IMG/VR virus record: IMGVR_UViG_3300034107_000579
Span: 1-40,782 of that record
Reading direction: 5' to 3' (one strand)
Length of the DNA stretch: 40,782 bases
Source: a virus
Positions within the stretch are counted from its first letter, which is position 1. Each line of letters opens with the position of its first letter. Below, piece by piece: positions 12,299-18,599 of this stretch. A program made the position numbers and the translations under genes. The notes beneath the pieces were generated by a model. It made no database searches. It was not told where the DNA came from and worked only from the letters and a program-made list of their open reading frames with translations.

Positions 12299-13624
12299 AT
12301 GGCAACTCTCTCAAAAGGCAAAACATTCACCAACGGCGAACTCGTCACTCCCGCAACGCTCCACTCTCTGGTGGACTCCGGCACCGTCACTAACATCGTC
12401 AACGCCGACATCTCCAACACCGCCGCCATCGCCGACTCTAAGCTCGCGCAGATCAGCACGGCAGGAAAGGTGCTTGCCGCTGCGGTGCAAGGCACGCTTG
12501 CCAACGCCCGCACCACGGCGACATCCGCAAATACGGCCAATGCCATTGTGGCTAGGGATGCCAGTGGGGACTTCTCGGCAGGCAAAATCAACGGGGTCAC
12601 CGTAGGAATGGGCGGCGGTAGCGTAAATACAAATACGGCGGTGGGGTTGCAGGGATTAAATGCAAATACCAGCGGAAATAGCAATACGGCGGTTGGGTGG
12701 AGCTCACTCCAATCAAACACAACTGGCCAACAAAACACAGCCGCCGGTACAGGCGCACTTTTATTTAACACAACTGGCAGTAAAAACACAGCTTTCGGGG
12801 CAAACACTTTTTCTGCTAATACAACGGGCTATGAAAACACAGCGATAGGTGCCAATGCCCTTTTTTTAAACACAACTGGCTATGGAAACATAGCACTCGG
12901 GTATCAAGCCCTGTTAAATAACACAACAGGAAGAGGCAACACAGCGTGCGGGTTCGCCGCCCTTTTGCAAAACACTGGCAACGATAACACTGCCGTAGGG
13001 GGTAATGCGCTTTTCGGAAATACAACAGGAACTTTAAACACAGCTATTGGGTTGTTAGCCCTCCAGAGTGGGAATTACTCACAATCTTCTGGTGTAGGCT
13101 ACAATGCACAAGTCACTGGATCAAATCAAGTCCAGCTTGGAAATTCCACTGCGACCACTTACGCCTACGGCGCGGTGCAAGACCGGTCCGACGTCCGAGA
13201 TAAAGCCGACATCCGCGATACCACGCTGGGGCTGGATTTTGTAAATGCGCTTCGTCCGGTGGATTTTCGATGGGACTACCGCGAAGACTATCGGCCATTT
13301 GCCCCGACTCTTCCGGCTCAAGACGCTTCGGCCGAAGAGAAAGCGGCATATAAAGCGGCGCTGAACAAATGGCAGGAAGATGTCAAGCTGGCCAATATCA
13401 CGCACGACGGCAGCAAGAAGCGCAACCGCTACCATCACGGGCTCATCGCCCAAGAGGTCAAAGCAGTCCTCGACGCGCAGGGACTCGACTTTGGGGGATA
13501 CCAAGATCACTCGATCAAGGGTGGCGACGATGTGCTGTCGCTTGGCTATGAGGAACTCATCGCGCCACTCATCAAGGCCGTCCAAGAACTCGCCGCCCGC
13601 GTCGCCGCCCTCGAAGCCCGATGA
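12299..13624 (+). CDS. Tail fibre with 17-aa repeats and S74 intramolecular chaperone
   Basis: This 441-aa protein has an N-terminal fibre module (FTNGELVTPATLHSLVDSG), a central run of about eight 17-residue repeats of the type NTTGxxNTAxGxxALxx (residues about 115-260), and a C-terminal S74 chaperone/auto-protease domain. In the latter, SDVRDK gives the Ser297-Lys302 dyad expected for self-cleavage, and LIAQEVK and YEELIAPLIKAVQEL are typical of the family. The chaperone folds the trimeric fibre and is then cut off. The repeat region is AT-richer than its surroundings. The stop overlaps the next start (ATGA). Confidence 0.88.
   Translation: MATLSKGKTFTNGELVTPATLHSLVDSGTVTNIVNADISNTAAIADSKLAQISTAGKVLAAAVQGTLANARTTATSANTANAIVARDASGDFSAGKINGVTVGMGGGSVNTNTAVGLQGLNANTSGNSNTAVGWSSLQSNTTGQQNTAAGTGALLFNTTGSKNTAFGANTFSANTTGYENTAIGANALFLNTTGYGNIALGYQALLNNTTGRGNTACGFAALLQNTGNDNTAVGGNALFGNTTGTLNTAIGLLALQSGNYSQSSGVGYNAQVTGSNQVQLGNSTATTYAYGAVQDRSDVRDKADIRDTTLGLDFVNALRPVDFRWDYREDYRPFAPTLPAQDASAEEKAAYKAALNKWQEDVKLANITHDGSKKRNRYHHGLIAQEVKAVLDAQGLDFGGYQDHSIKGGDDVLSLGYEELIAPLIKAVQELAARVAALEAR
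12664..13065 (+). repeat. 51-bp tandem coding repeats in the fibre gene
   Basis: Successive units carry an AACACAACTGG-like core about 51 bp apart (for example aactgg at 12721 and 12772), encoding 17-residue NTTG...NTA..G..AL units. One unit near 12980 is one codon short. The repeats are diverged, so they are old, but they could still recombine. Confidence 0.85.
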
Positions 13625-14016
13625 CCTCCGCCCCCTCCATGCTCAAGCAAGACCTCTACCGCAGTCCGAAGCTCGCGGTGCGGCGGAGCCCTGTGCATCG
13701 CTGGGGAGTCTTTGCGGTCGAGCCTATTGCCGCTCACGAACTCCTTGAGGAGTCACCCTTTTTCTACCTCGACAAACGCGAGATCAAAAAAGCCCCCGCC
13801 TGCGAGCCCTACACCTACTACTTTGACGACGCCTGGAGCATCGTCGGCCTCGGCCTCGCCGGACTCTACAACCACGCAACCACCCCCAACGCAGACCACC
13901 AAATCGACAAATTAAACGAGGTCATGCGGCACTACTCCACCCGCGCCATCCAGGCCGGTGAGGAGATCACACTCCACTACGGCGACGATAACGCCGCCAA
14001 CTTTCAGAAAGACTAA
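13621..14016 (+). CDS. SET-domain protein (lysine methyltransferase-like)
   Basis: This 131-aa protein is a compact SET domain. HRWGVFAVEPI (residues 26-36) corresponds to the first SET motif; GLYNHATTPNA (81-91) carries the Asn84-His85 pair that contacts S-adenosylmethionine; GEEITLHYG (113-121) supplies the conserved catalytic Tyr120. SET enzymes methylate lysine side chains of proteins. There is no pre-SET zinc cluster, as in many bacterial SET proteins. The start overlaps the fibre stop, and the next gene begins four bases after its stop, so its target is likely a virion or host protein. The usual Gly in the first motif is replaced (HRWG). Confidence 0.85.
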   Translation: MTSAPSMLKQDLYRSPKLAVRRSPVHRWGVFAVEPIAAHELLEESPFFYLDKREIKKAPACEPYTYYFDDAWSIVGLGLAGLYNHATTPNADHQIDKLNEVMRHYSTRAIQAGEEITLHYGDDNAANFQKD

Positions 14017-14020
14017 AACT

Positions 14021-16426
14021 ATGCCAATGAACATGAGCAACGGCGGAGGAGGAGGCGGCGGCGGTATGTCCGGCGGCGGCGGTGGCGCAATGAGCGCAGC
14101 CCCAGCAATGAGCAACGCGATGTCCGACAACAACATGGGCGGCAACGCCATGTCCGATAGTGGGAACGCCATGTCCAGCGGCATGAGCGCCGCCACAGCC
14201 ATGTCCGGCGGAGCGATGTCTGGCGGCGGCATGAGTGGCGCCCCACTCCGCACCGGCATGTCTGTAGATCCCCGCAGCGCGCCCCGCACGCGAGATTTTC
14301 GCAATGAGTTATCAGCCATACGCACGGCCAGCGGCCAAATCGCCCAAGATCAAGCCAACACCACCGTCGATACCGCAGACCGCCTCAGCGACCAAGCCAT
14401 CGAAAGCACCGGCGACATCGCCAAGAAGCTCGAAGACAGCACCTACACCGCAGCAGCTAACCAAAAAATCCGCGACGCCGGAACCTCGGCCACCCAACTC
14501 GGCCAGAGCTACAACCAAGTCGGCCAGACTGCCGACCGTGTAGCCGCATACAACGACCCCGCACAAGCTCGGTTGAACCAAATAGCCCTCGGCCAGCTCT
14601 ACCGCCCAGACCAGCTTTCCTCGCAAGGCGTCTCCGCCGACCAAGCGCAAGGTGCCCGCGTCGCCGATGTCGGCCGCATGCAAGCCGCCCAGGCTGGCGG
14701 CCCCGCCAATGTCCAAGGCGCGCGTACAAGTGCCGCGAGCATGGGGAATGTGGCTAATGTGCAAGCCCAACAAATGCAAGCGCAGCAAGCGGGAGCTTTT
14801 GAGCGAGTCGCCGGCCGCGATGTCACGGGCGCACGGATAGCAAATACTCCGCAAATAGGGGGAATCAATGCCGCTCAAGTGCAAGATGTCTCTGGTCAAC
14901 AAGTGGGGCAAGGCCAGCTCGGGCAAAGTCTATACCAGACAGCTCAAAATAGGCTGGCTTTAAACGGGCAACTCTCTTCCGAAGCGTCCCGCGATGCGGT
15001 GCAATCTGCCCGAGCAGGATATGCGGCGCGGGGCATGGCGACCGGCAACTCAGCTCTTGCAGGAGAACTCCTTAACCGTGACCGCTACTCCCAGCAAAGA
15101 TTCCAGCAAGACGGAGTATTTGCGTCCGCCGTGCAAAATTCCGATATTGGTCGCCAGCAGCAGAACTCCGCCCTGTCCCTCGATGCGGCTCGCGCTAACC
15201 AGGCTAAATCTGCGCAACTTTCCTTGGCAAACCAAGCTGCCGGAATGGATGCGGCTCGAGCTAATCAAGCTGCCGAGATAAGCGTCAACCAAGCCAATGC
15301 GGGCTACCTGCAACAAGCGAACCTATCCAACCAAGACGCAGCTCTTCGTGCAAGCGGACTTAACCAAGCGGCAGGCATGCAGACCGAGCAATACAATGCC
15401 GGTCTCCGCCAGACAGCTAATGCGGCCAACCAAGATGCCGCTCTCCGCGCAGCGCAGGCGAATCAACTCACGGCCTACAACACCAACCAATTCAACGCCG
15501 CGAATAGCCAATCCGCGAACCTCGCAAATGCAAACTTCGCCCAGCAGGCCGGACTTGCGAACCAATCGACCGGACTCCAGCTCGGCCTCACCAACGCGCA
15601 ACTCCAGCAGCAGGCCAACGCCACCTCCTACGAAGCCTCCCAGCAATCCGCCATGGCCAACGCAGGCTACGCCCAACAGGCCGGACTCGCCAACCAACAG
15701 GCCAACCTCACCGCCGCGCAATACAATAGCAGCCAAAACCTCGCCGCCCAGAGCGCCAACCAATCGGCAAACTACAACGCGAACTACGCGAACCAAAATT
15801 TCCTGCAAGGCGTCGCCAGTCAGAACTTCAACCAATTCAGCGGCCAGCAAAGCATGCTCGGCAGCCTCTACGGCCAGCAAGCAGGCATCGCCCAAAACCA
15901 ATACTCCAACAACCTCGGCCTCGCCCAGGCCAACGTCGCCCTCGACCCCTACCAACGCGCCCTCGGATCCAATATCCCTATAGCCAGCCAAGGCAACGCC
16001 GCCAACATGATCGGCCAGAGCTTCGGGAATACCATGACCTACGGCAACGACCTCTTCAACACCAACACCAACATGCAGGCCAGCATCTACAACACCTATC
16101 AAAACAACCGCGCAGGCTTGAAATCTGCAAACATCCAAGCCGACGCCTCACGCGACGCCTCTGGCATGGGACTACAAGGTGCGGCTATGGGAGCAAGCGC
16201 CATCATAGGAGCCGCCGCCGCAGCCTGTTGGGTAGCCCGCGCCGCCTTCGGCACGACCACCACTCGTTGGGTGGAATACCGCCGCAGCATGCTGCGCCAT
16301 GCCAGCGACCGCACGATCCGCCTCTACTGCCAGCACGGCCAATCAATCGCCGCCGCCATCACCACGCCACTCCGCCGCCTCATCGCCCGCCTCACACTCC
16401 GCACCCTTCAATGGTCTTGGAACTAA
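14021..16426 (+). CDS. Gly/Met/Ser-rich and Ala/Gln/Asn-rich virion-type protein with C-terminal Cys-Trp domain
   Basis: This 801-aa protein has three parts. Residues 1-80 are almost only Gly, Met, Ser, Ala and Asn, with an eight-glycine run and many MSGG/AMS units. Residues about 100-690 are Ala/Gln/Asn-rich helical repeats (ANQAAGMDAARANQ, NQDAALRA), as in phage ejection or internal virion proteins. After a hydrophobic stretch, residues 736-801 form a basic domain starting CWVARAAFG with aromatic and Arg-rich helices; I recall similar CWxAR C-terminal domains in other phage proteins. The YcaO gene starts inside its last codons (16-base overlap), so the two are translationally coupled. The start at 14021 is chosen because the upstream frame lies in the SET gene. 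Confidence 0.75.
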   Translation: MPMNMSNGGGGGGGGMSGGGGGAMSAAPAMSNAMSDNNMGGNAMSDSGNAMSSGMSAATAMSGGAMSGGGMSGAPLRTGMSVDPRSAPRTRDFRNELSAIRTASGQIAQDQANTTVDTADRLSDQAIESTGDIAKKLEDSTYTAAANQKIRDAGTSATQLGQSYNQVGQTADRVAAYNDPAQARLNQIALGQLYRPDQLSSQGVSADQAQGARVADVGRMQAAQAGGPANVQGARTSAASMGNVANVQAQQMQAQQAGAFERVAGRDVTGARIANTPQIGGINAAQVQDVSGQQVGQGQLGQSLYQTAQNRLALNGQLSSEASRDAVQSARAGYAARGMATGNSALAGELLNRDRYSQQRFQQDGVFASAVQNSDIGRQQQNSALSLDAARANQAKSAQLSLANQAAGMDAARANQAAEISVNQANAGYLQQANLSNQDAALRASGLNQAAGMQTEQYNAGLRQTANAANQDAALRAAQANQLTAYNTNQFNAANSQSANLANANFAQQAGLANQSTGLQLGLTNAQLQQQANATSYEASQQSAMANAGYAQQAGLANQQANLTAAQYNSSQNLAAQSANQSANYNANYANQNFLQGVASQNFNQFSGQQSMLGSLYGQQAGIAQNQYSNNLGLAQANVALDPYQRALGSNIPIASQGNAANMIGQSFGNTMTYGNDLFNTNTNMQASIYNTYQNNRAGLKSANIQADASRDASGMGLQGAAMGASAIIGAAAAACWVARAAFGTTTTRWVEYRRSMLRHASDRTIRLYCQHGQSIAAAITTPLRRLIARLTLRTLQWSWN

Positions 16427-17586
16427 CAGAGAAAATCCGACTCGAAGGAGCCCACCGCGCCTGCACTCCAGAGCAAACGCTGGAGCGCATGCGTCCGCAT
16501 TTCCACGCCGCAGGCATTACCCGCCTCGCCGAGATCACTGGGCTCGACCGCATCGGTATCTGTGTCGCCCAGTGCATCCGTCCCGATGCCATAGTGCTGG
16601 CCGTAGATTCCGGCAAAGGAGCTACGCCTGCCGCAGCGAAATGCTCGGCCATGATGGAGGGCTTCGAGCGCCATGTCGGCGAGACCAGCCGCCCTCGGCA
16701 CATACTCGCCACCGCAGCGCAGCTCGGCGACAAAGCCGAGACCCGCCTGCCACTCTCCAAGGGAGCTGTCTTCCACCCCCACGCCCTCATGCCGTGGACC
16801 GAGGTGCGAGGCCTACAGAGTGGATCCGCCCGCATGGTGCCCACCGACACCGTGCGCCTCCTCGCCCGTCCAGACCCCGCTCCGCTTACCAGCCTGCCAT
16901 TTGCCTACACAAGCAACGGCCTTTCCTCCGGCAACACCTACGCCGAAGCCGTCGCCGGTGGCCTCTACGAGTGCATCGAACGCGACGCCACAGCCATCGC
17001 CCAGCACAGGCTACAAGATTTCCCCCGTGTCGATCTCGACACCATCACCGACCCCACCGTAGCCCGCCTCGTCCGCACACTGCGAGATGCCGACATCACC
17101 CCCGTGCTCCTCGATGTCACCAGCGACATCGGCCTGCCCACCTACATAGCCTACCTCATCGACTGCGAGAGCGGCTGTGGAGTCAATAAAGGCTACGCCG
17201 CCCACCTCGATCCAGCCGTGGCCCAAGCCCGCGCCCTCACCGAGACCATTCAAGCCCGCGCCGTATGGATTGCTGGAAGTCGCGACGACTTCCTCCACGC
17301 CCGCTACGAGAAGGTCAAAGCCACCGACTCCTCCGCCATTCTCGCCCGCCTCTACAAGCACGCCACCACCAGCGCAAACGCCCATCCCGACCGCTCCCGC
17401 GACACCTTTGAGGCAGACATAGACACCCTCCTCAATCTCCTCGATGCCGTCGGCGTCCCCGAGCCGCTCGTCTATGAGTTCACTCACGACTACCCATGCA
17501 GCGTCGTGCGAATCATAACCCCTACGCTGGAAGGCTACACCTTCGACTACTCGCAACCAGGCCAACGCGCCAGGAGGGCCAAATGA
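16411..17586 (+). CDS. YcaO-family protein (ATP-dependent peptide-backbone modifying enzyme)
   Basis: This 391-aa protein has the YcaO ATP/Mg-binding pattern: SAMMEGFE (Ser79, Glu83, Glu86), NTYAEAVAGGLYECIERDA (Glu179, Glu187, Glu190) and ALTETIQAR...GSRDD (residues 275-293). YcaO enzymes phosphorylate a backbone amide oxygen so that it can be replaced by a nucleophile, giving azolines, amidines or thioamides. The proline-rich C-terminus of azoline-forming cyclodehydratases is absent; it ends QRARRAK. The adjacent TfuA gene points to thioamidation. The start overlaps the 801-aa gene by 16 bases. A longer upstream frame from 16228 lies in that gene and is unlikely. Confidence 0.92.
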   Translation: MVLELTEKIRLEGAHRACTPEQTLERMRPHFHAAGITRLAEITGLDRIGICVAQCIRPDAIVLAVDSGKGATPAAAKCSAMMEGFERHVGETSRPRHILATAAQLGDKAETRLPLSKGAVFHPHALMPWTEVRGLQSGSARMVPTDTVRLLARPDPAPLTSLPFAYTSNGLSSGNTYAEAVAGGLYECIERDATAIAQHRLQDFPRVDLDTITDPTVARLVRTLRDADITPVLLDVTSDIGLPTYIAYLIDCESGCGVNKGYAAHLDPAVAQARALTETIQARAVWIAGSRDDFLHARYEKVKATDSSAILARLYKHATTSANAHPDRSRDTFEADIDTLLNLLDAVGVPEPLVYEFTHDYPCSVVRIITPTLEGYTFDYSQPGQRARRAK

Positions 17587-18599
17587 AAATCTTCCTCGGC
17601 CCCACACGACCTAGCAACATCCCCGCCGATGCCGACCTACGGCCCCCCGCACAGCAAGGCGACATCGCTGCCGCTGCCATAGAGGGACCGGATACGCTCA
17701 TCCTCATCGACGGCCTCTTTCACCAGACGCTTGCTCCCTGGCACAAGGAGATCCTCTTTGCTATTGATCGAGGGTGCCGAGTGATCGGGGCAGGAAGCCT
17801 CGGGGCGCTCCGCGCTGTGGAGTGCGCTCGCTACGGAGCCGAGCCGGTCGGAATCATCGCCGGTTGGTATGCCGACGAGTCCTGCACTGACGACGCCGAT
17901 GTCGCTCTCGCTCACGGCCACGCCGAAGATGGCTACCGCGCCCTCTCAATCCCAATCGTCAACATCCGCGCCACCGCCGAGTGCCTCGTCGCCGATGGCT
18001 TGCTCGCCGCCGCCGAGTTGCCTAGACTGCTCGCCGCCGCCCGCTCGATCTACTACGTCGAGCGCAGTTGGCCGCGCCTCCGCCAAGCCCTCGGCCCCGT
18101 AGCAGACCTCCTCCGCGAAAACTACCGCGACCAGAAAGCCCTCGACGCCGAGGAAGCCATCCGCCACGCCCAGCATGTCGCCGCTCCTATCCAGCACGAC
18201 ACGCCCCAGCACACGCACAGCGCCTATTTTCTCGCCCTCCTCGCCAATGACCTGCCAACCGGCGACGGCCAACGCCAGCACCACCTCACCAGCGAAGCCG
18301 CCCGCACCCTTGCCACCGACCGCCACCTCGTCTCCGAGCTGGCCCAACTCCTCGGCATCGTCACCACCCCCGAAGACATCTTCGCCGCCAGCACCCGCAT
18401 GTGGCAGCGCCTCGGCATCACCGACTCAAAAACCGCAAAATGCTGGCTCTCCGAGCACGCCTGGACCGACGAGCAATGGTATGCCCACGCCCAGCGCGAA
18501 GCCCTCCGCCAATCCGCCCGCGATTGGCACAACGCCAGCGGTGCCTGCCTCGACATCGTTCCACTCACCCTCGCCCACAACTTACTCAACCCAGCCTAA
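17583..18599 (+). CDS. TfuA-like protein, partner of YcaO
   Basis: This 338-aa protein matches the TfuA core: GPTRPSN near the start, PPAQQGDI (21-28), a LIDGLFHQTLAPWHKEIL block (41-58), VIGAGSLGALRA (67-78), DDADVALAH (103-111) and IPIVNIRAT (123-131). TfuA partners help YcaO form thioamides, as in thioviridamide-type peptides and methyl-CoM reductase glycine; supply of sulfide is the proposed role. The second half (140-338) is helical and less conserved. The start overlaps the YcaO stop (ATGA) behind a clear GGAGG site at about 17571, unlike the neighbouring virion genes. Confidence 0.9.
   Translation: MKIFLGPTRPSNIPADADLRPPAQQGDIAAAAIEGPDTLILIDGLFHQTLAPWHKEILFAIDRGCRVIGAGSLGALRAVECARYGAEPVGIIAGWYADESCTDDADVALAHGHAEDGYRALSIPIVNIRATAECLVADGLLAAAELPRLLAAARSIYYVERSWPRLRQALGPVADLLRENYRDQKALDAEEAIRHAQHVAAPIQHDTPQHTHSAYFLALLANDLPTGDGQRQHHLTSEAARTLATDRHLVSELAQLLGIVTTPEDIFAASTRMWQRLGITDSKTAKCWLSEHAWTDEQWYAHAQREALRQSARDWHNASGACLDIVPLTLAHNLLNPA

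Follow-up and report, generated by a model that had tools for sequence, protein, structure and literature searches.

In the phage genome analyzed here, the final 66 residues of an 801-residue virion-type protein (V801) form a unit with the adjacent ycaO and tfuA genes. This C-terminal segment, which carries the signature CW[VI]ARxx[FY]G...Y...G and is called the CW domain below, was almost always gained and lost together with the enzyme pair among related phages. The neighboring SET gene lies outside the unit. The co-inheritance of two enzymes and a small domain of a virion protein suggests chemical modification of the particle by the phage itself. It is quite plausible, although well short of certain, that ycaO-tfuA serves specifically to thioamidate the backbone of V801, a protein of the same phage, likely within the CW domain; we infer the reaction, the substrate, the modified residue and the benefit. 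A matched enzyme-domain cassette of this kind points to a small candidate substrate and suggests what orphan YcaO-TfuA pairs that lack a precursor peptide may be for.

Organization of the virion operon

The window, that is the whole stretch of 40,782 nt that was analyzed, is a complete circular-type phage genome, since it carries a 127-bp exact repeat at its ends. The capsid gene is found at the start of the genome, which also encodes a terminase, an S74 fiber, a CHAP endolysin, a DnaB-like helicase and an integrase. A host of this phage was not found; the five genome relatives of its YcaO are cellular, and none of them is this phage. A preliminary description had pointed to a SET gene, V801, ycaO and tfuA as closely packed within virion-type genes. 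A check of the open reading frames bears this out: all four genes are intact at the positions given in Table 1, with an S74 fiber upstream and a giant protein of 2,135 residues downstream. A gap of 4 bases separates SET from V801, the ycaO start codon (ATG at 16411) overlaps V801 by 16 bases, and the tfuA start codon (ATG at 17583) overlaps ycaO by 4 bases and is immediately preceded by AGGAGGG.

Table 1. Features of the locus in the window and, in the last two rows, of genes found in related contigs.
Feature	Position	Strand	Matches and remarks
Virion protein, 633 aa	10395..12296	+	PHROG 3287 virion structural protein, 9.9e-08; independent tree marker
Tail fiber or spike with S74 chaperone domain	12299..13624	+	PF13884, 1.1e-10; phrog_4636, 6e-107
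SET-domain protein, 131 aa	13621..14016	+	PF00856, 1.3e-10; neighbor outside the cassette
V801, virion-type (ejection-protein-like), 801 aa	14021..16426	+	N/Q/A-rich repeats; C-terminal CW domain
CW domain, final 66 aa of V801	16226..16423	+	Proposed substrate region
ycaO, 391 aa	16411..17586	+	PF02624, 2.5e-65; PDB 6pe3, 1e-23
tfuA, 338 aa	17583..18599	+	PF07812, 2.5e-34; PDB 6xp8, 9.4e-22
w202, coil-type virion protein, 202 aa	18605..19213	+	In YcaO-less phages, counterpart comes immediately after the CW gene
Giant virion-type (internal or ejection-like) protein, 2135 aa	19226..25633	+	PHROG 32588, 8.9e-08, a function-unknown family
ThiS/MoaD-like carrier	L091:5454-5720		About 25 related loci, e.g. 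L018, L020, L022, L026, L044, L053
PP-loop gene at the ycaO position	L381:6676-7770, L377:5185-6258, L385:15377-16465		About 40 further loci

The SET, YcaO and TfuA proteins all exceed their Pfam gathering cut-offs (42.1 bits against 22.4 for SET with PF00856, 221 bits against 25.7 for YcaO with PF02624). The SET protein harbors the NHxxxPN and Tyr motifs as NHATTPN and HYGD, and its nearest solved relatives are Set7 (5h6z, 5e-13) and vSET. V801 matches no Pfam family. It is probably an ejection-type protein, encoded ahead of the coil-type and giant internal proteins.

The YcaO-TfuA pair and the sulfur carrier of relatives

The window YcaO retains the invariant residues SGKG, E..E, SNG, ERD and E..Q.R, as seen in the family alignment and against M. 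jannaschii MJ1094 (6pe3), its nearest solved relative. The nearest solved relative of TfuA is 6xp8. Among NCBIfam models, the best for the window YcaO is methan_mark_1, under the cut-off of that model. The dN/dS values of ycaO, between 0.04 and 0.28, indicate purifying selection. A scan of viral contigs with the window YcaO as query retrieved 61 loci, and a deeply different second clade, with contigs of 60-78 kb among its members, came to light when a diverse YcaO alignment served as query. Identity between the two clades is about 25-30%. YcaO-TfuA pairs located behind a V801 homolog recur in IMG/VR contigs, and tfuA adjoins ycaO in all relatives whose contig extends far enough. Two representative YcaO proteins, one per clade, had no detectable relative among the 50,697 records of INPHARED. 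A separate acquisition of ycaO by each phage clade was favored by the best tree, yet a single origin is not rejected (AU p 0.28), and the scenario of two acquisitions was not retained.

In the clade whose YcaO is 84% identical to that of the window, a ThiS-type open reading frame of 88 residues lies between ycaO and tfuA. It matches PF02597 (ThiS, 2.8e-08) as well as solved ThiS/MoaD and CysO-type proteins, and it ends in AGG, an ending that is kept in a sequence conserved down to 67% identity. Outside high-sulfide settings, thioamide-forming YcaO enzymes tend to use a ThiS homolog together with TfuA (PMC13063428). The ThiS gene of the sister clade thus supports thioamidation over azoline chemistry. 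Moreover, a search of 22 phage contigs, the window among them, revealed no ThiF partner, and none of 68 YcaO proteins ends in PxPxP, which makes azoline formation less likely. These results agree with the earlier assignment of the pair to the thioamide-forming type. The ThiS carrier is absent from the window, so the host would have to supply it. The earlier remark that no short precursor peptide accompanies the pair also stands, as the overlapping genes of the cassette leave no room for one and the only extra small open reading frame in relatives is ThiS. Finally, a cellular YcaO-TfuA pair was observed beside ThiS (ending in AGG) and ThiF genes in a Rhabdochlamydiaceae metagenome-assembled genome (L253:6560-9242).

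The CW domain and its association with ycaO-tfuA

The CW domain of V801 reads CWVARAAFG...RWVEYRR...LYCQHG... and is directly preceded by an Ala/Gly-rich hydrophobic stretch. The V801 homologs (V proteins) encoded upstream of ycaO vary from 264 to 977 residues in length, and their last 66 residues are near-constant and abut ycaO, with the consensus CW[VI]AR[AT]x[FY]G...RWxx[FY]R...YCxxG. In a set of 54 diverse CW domains, the invariant columns are C, W, A, R, G, Y, G and A; the sole invariant glycines of this set are those of the [FY]G that ends the first motif and of YxxxG. The L055 and L192 domains each lack one of these glycines, so neither glycine is absolutely required. The predicted structure is helical, and its confidence is good for the domain part alone (pLDDT about 79-90). 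A fold search with this model returned no solved relative, the only matches being uncharacterized phage proteins. A weak match to CFI-box-CTERM (NF041770) was found in 14 of 19 sequences (best 1.9e-05), with a shared C-aromatic-[VI]-A...[FY]G start, but it falls below the cut-off (20.8 against 40 bits for the best match shown) and leaves the window copy unmatched; we regard CW as a phage-specific helical domain. The hhalign value of 97% between CW and an approximate CFI-box consensus is a lead only. Residue 7 of the first motif is A, C or T in domains accompanied by YcaO and V in the others (small residue in 19 of 24 against 5 of 61). It was rejected as a mark of the substrate: the domain tree splits the YcaO-associated domains into two groups and offers fewer than three independent pairs, and ancestry explains the difference equally well.

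When IMG/VR loci were picked by YcaO alone, the CW domain was located directly upstream of ycaO for 64 of 69 distinct YcaO sequences. The pairing is present in both YcaO clades, in 40-kb and in 60-78-kb phages. The five exceptions are L049, L052, L173, L187 and L188. In L049 and L052, ycaO-tfuA has moved to a separate operon, and on the L049 contig CWVAREVYG sits on a different virion gene. The V protein stops short of the CW domain in the other three, as it does in the short fragment L058. Readthrough of the stop codon (selenocysteine) was discarded as the cause of the missing domain in these four, since the domain appears in no downstream frame. As L049, L052 and L173 nest within CW-positive clades of the YcaO tree, their exceptions look secondary.

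A scan for the CW motif, neutral as to YcaO, yielded 85 domain loci followed by 1.3 kb or more of sequence, 80 of which lack YcaO. The domain is thus common in YcaO-less phages and works unmodified there. The gene order in these phages is CW protein, coil protein (about 200-800 residues) and giant protein (about 1000-2900 residues), an arrangement that we liken to that of podoviral genes for internal or ejection proteins. The ycaO-tfuA pair of the window occupies precisely the junction of the CW and coil genes. Among annotated phages, the CW domain was seen in Puniceispirillum phage HMO-2011 only. The CWVAREVYG form is a widespread C-terminal module of virion proteins from uncultured phages (IMG/VR L240, L255-L359). 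A CWVARAAWG variant occurs without YcaO in L413:9804-12461 and L415:12290-15556, and a w202-like gene comes directly next in L413.

Relatives were gathered via the 633-residue virion protein and via the gene that occupies the ycaO position in YcaO-less relatives. Of the resulting 98 loci, 56 harbor both YcaO and the CW domain and 40 neither; two have the domain without YcaO, and none has YcaO without the domain. On the tree of the 633-residue protein, the YcaO state changes at least 11 times on well-supported branches, and 21 times on the best tree. The CW domain moved with YcaO in 10.9 of 11 independent pairs and against it in none (sign test, p about 0.001). No link with YcaO was observed for SET (0.2 against 0.2 of 11 independent pairs) or for the N-terminal motif of w202, the next virion gene (0.2 against 0.3 of 9).

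The YcaO-less relatives carry a different arrangement at this site. Their V proteins end in a hydrophobic tail, such as GGMVLGMTALAI or GGMIGAAVII (42/42), followed by a gene for a PP-loop protein of the PAPS-reductase family with WSGGKDSTAMLH. Tail and enzyme type are matched in all 42 cases, and YcaO, TfuA and the CW domain are each absent from the 44 loci with a PP-loop gene. The two blocks, domain-ycaO-tfuA and tail-PP-loop gene, are non-homologous and have homologous flanks, so homologous recombination would exchange them whole. Because such an exchange is possible, the co-switching shows a physical cassette that includes the CW domain rather than proving that the domain is the substrate.

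Proposed modification, alternatives and known systems

In the mechanism that we propose, YcaO would phosphorylate an amide oxygen in the folded CW domain, and TfuA would hand over sulfide from a thiocarboxylated ThiS-type carrier, encoded by the host here and by the phage in the sister clade. The resulting thioamide would most plausibly lie close to the invariant C-W-x-A-R-x-x-[FY]-G stretch and may rigidify or protect it. If V801 is of the ejection type, as is probable, the modified segment would act in the virion or the host envelope. More generally, and more tentatively, ejection-type virion proteins might be thioamidated in their CW domain by virus-encoded YcaO-TfuA with a phage or host ThiS, this cassette being exchanged among relatives for a PAPS-reductase-like PP-loop enzyme matched to a different tail.

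The suggestion that the phage modifies one of its own proteins, already an option in the preliminary description, is strengthened by the co-inheritance of the pair with one particular domain of the virion protein next to it, but the main rival explanation for the co-switching, neutral exchange of non-homologous blocks that take in the 3' end of the V gene, could give the same pattern. YcaO-TfuA might thioamidate another protein (host ribosomal, envelope or defense, or another virion protein); its place behind V would then only reflect tolerance of insertions at the 3' end of that gene, the CW domain hitchhiking in the exchanged block. We hold this main alternative to be less likely than a modification of V801, although it would account for the occurrence of CW domains without YcaO and of YcaO without CW, and for the separate ycaO-tfuA operon of L049 and L052; the PAPS-reductase family is also known as a phage metabolic gene, so that the site may be a slot for accessory genes. 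It fits less well with the pairing of the same domain on both sides of the deep divergence between the YcaO clades and in phages of different size, with the failure of the nearby SET gene and w202 motif to co-switch, and with the consistent match of tail and enzyme in the alternative cassette.

Other readings concern the chemistry or the partners. Instead of a thioamide, the YcaO product could be an azoline, such as a thiazoline formed at the invariant CWVAR Cys, or an amidine: this Cys and the residue ahead of it are located where the conserved domain begins, and Cys cyclization is common among YcaO enzymes (PMC5589413). The TfuA partner, the ThiS of the sister clade, the lack of a ThiF or E1-like partner and of PxPxP, and MJ1094, the closest structure and a thioamide-forming enzyme, make this improbable. 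Still less probable is a thioamidated RiPP made from an overlooked short precursor. Two studies use actinobacterial YcaO-TfuA pairs for the mining of such RiPPs (PMC6511847, PMC8120280), but the phage pair is located in a virion operon beside a long conserved virion gene, where the overlapping genes have no precursor space and ThiS is the only small open reading frame of relatives. Finally, the SET protein had been placed with V801, YcaO and TfuA in a single protein-modification island, in which SET would methylate, and YcaO-TfuA thioamidate, the same virion protein. The four genes are indeed adjacent in the window and in some relatives, but we had to abandon this grouping, which now appears very improbable. 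On the tree, SET and YcaO vary independently, and SET is found in a minority of the 61 YcaO loci, being missing from most YcaO-positive relatives and present in some YcaO-negative ones. In addition, V801 has five lysines, none of them conserved, and so offers no obvious SET target; SET was thus rejected as a partner of the cassette. All 40 SET-positive loci have a V protein of at least 602 residues, and SET was seen tied to a long V whatever the YcaO state (window, L003, L014, L016, L027, L039, L050, L381, L385).

The proposed thioamidation of V801 by YcaO-TfuA has counterparts in known systems. The McrA YcaO-TfuA of methanogens (6pe3, 6xp8) provides the closest solved relatives and is likewise an adjacent pair with a long folded protein as likely substrate. 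The window pair differs in being phage-borne, with no McrA and another proposed substrate, and it scores under both McrA equivalog cut-offs (197.5 against 365 bits for TIGR03266, 128 against 235.2 for NF033432). The E. coli YcaO, which acts on uL16 (PMC13063428), is similar in that a structured protein is recognized through its surface and without a leader peptide, but E. coli has no TfuA, the substrate belongs to the host ribosome, and the window YcaO scores 49.9 against 700 with NF040716. Thioamitide RiPP clusters of the thioviridamide type share the YcaO-TfuA chemistry, whereas the phage cassette comes without precursor peptide, protease or transporter and lies in a virion operon. Thioamidation by a YcaO enzyme is known for only two folded proteins, McrA (PMC5589413) and uL16, the "second example" (PMC13063428). 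A phage virion protein would add a third case, and the first from a virus; our literature search found no paper on phage thioamidation. Phage genes of the PAPS-reductase family (cysH-like) provide a sulfur-related enzyme at the identical position in YcaO-less relatives, but they encode a PP-loop fold and go with a hydrophobic V tail rather than a CW domain. In two phages of the second YcaO clade (G460 and G461, contigs of L181 and L183), a PAPS_reduct gene is located elsewhere in the genome.
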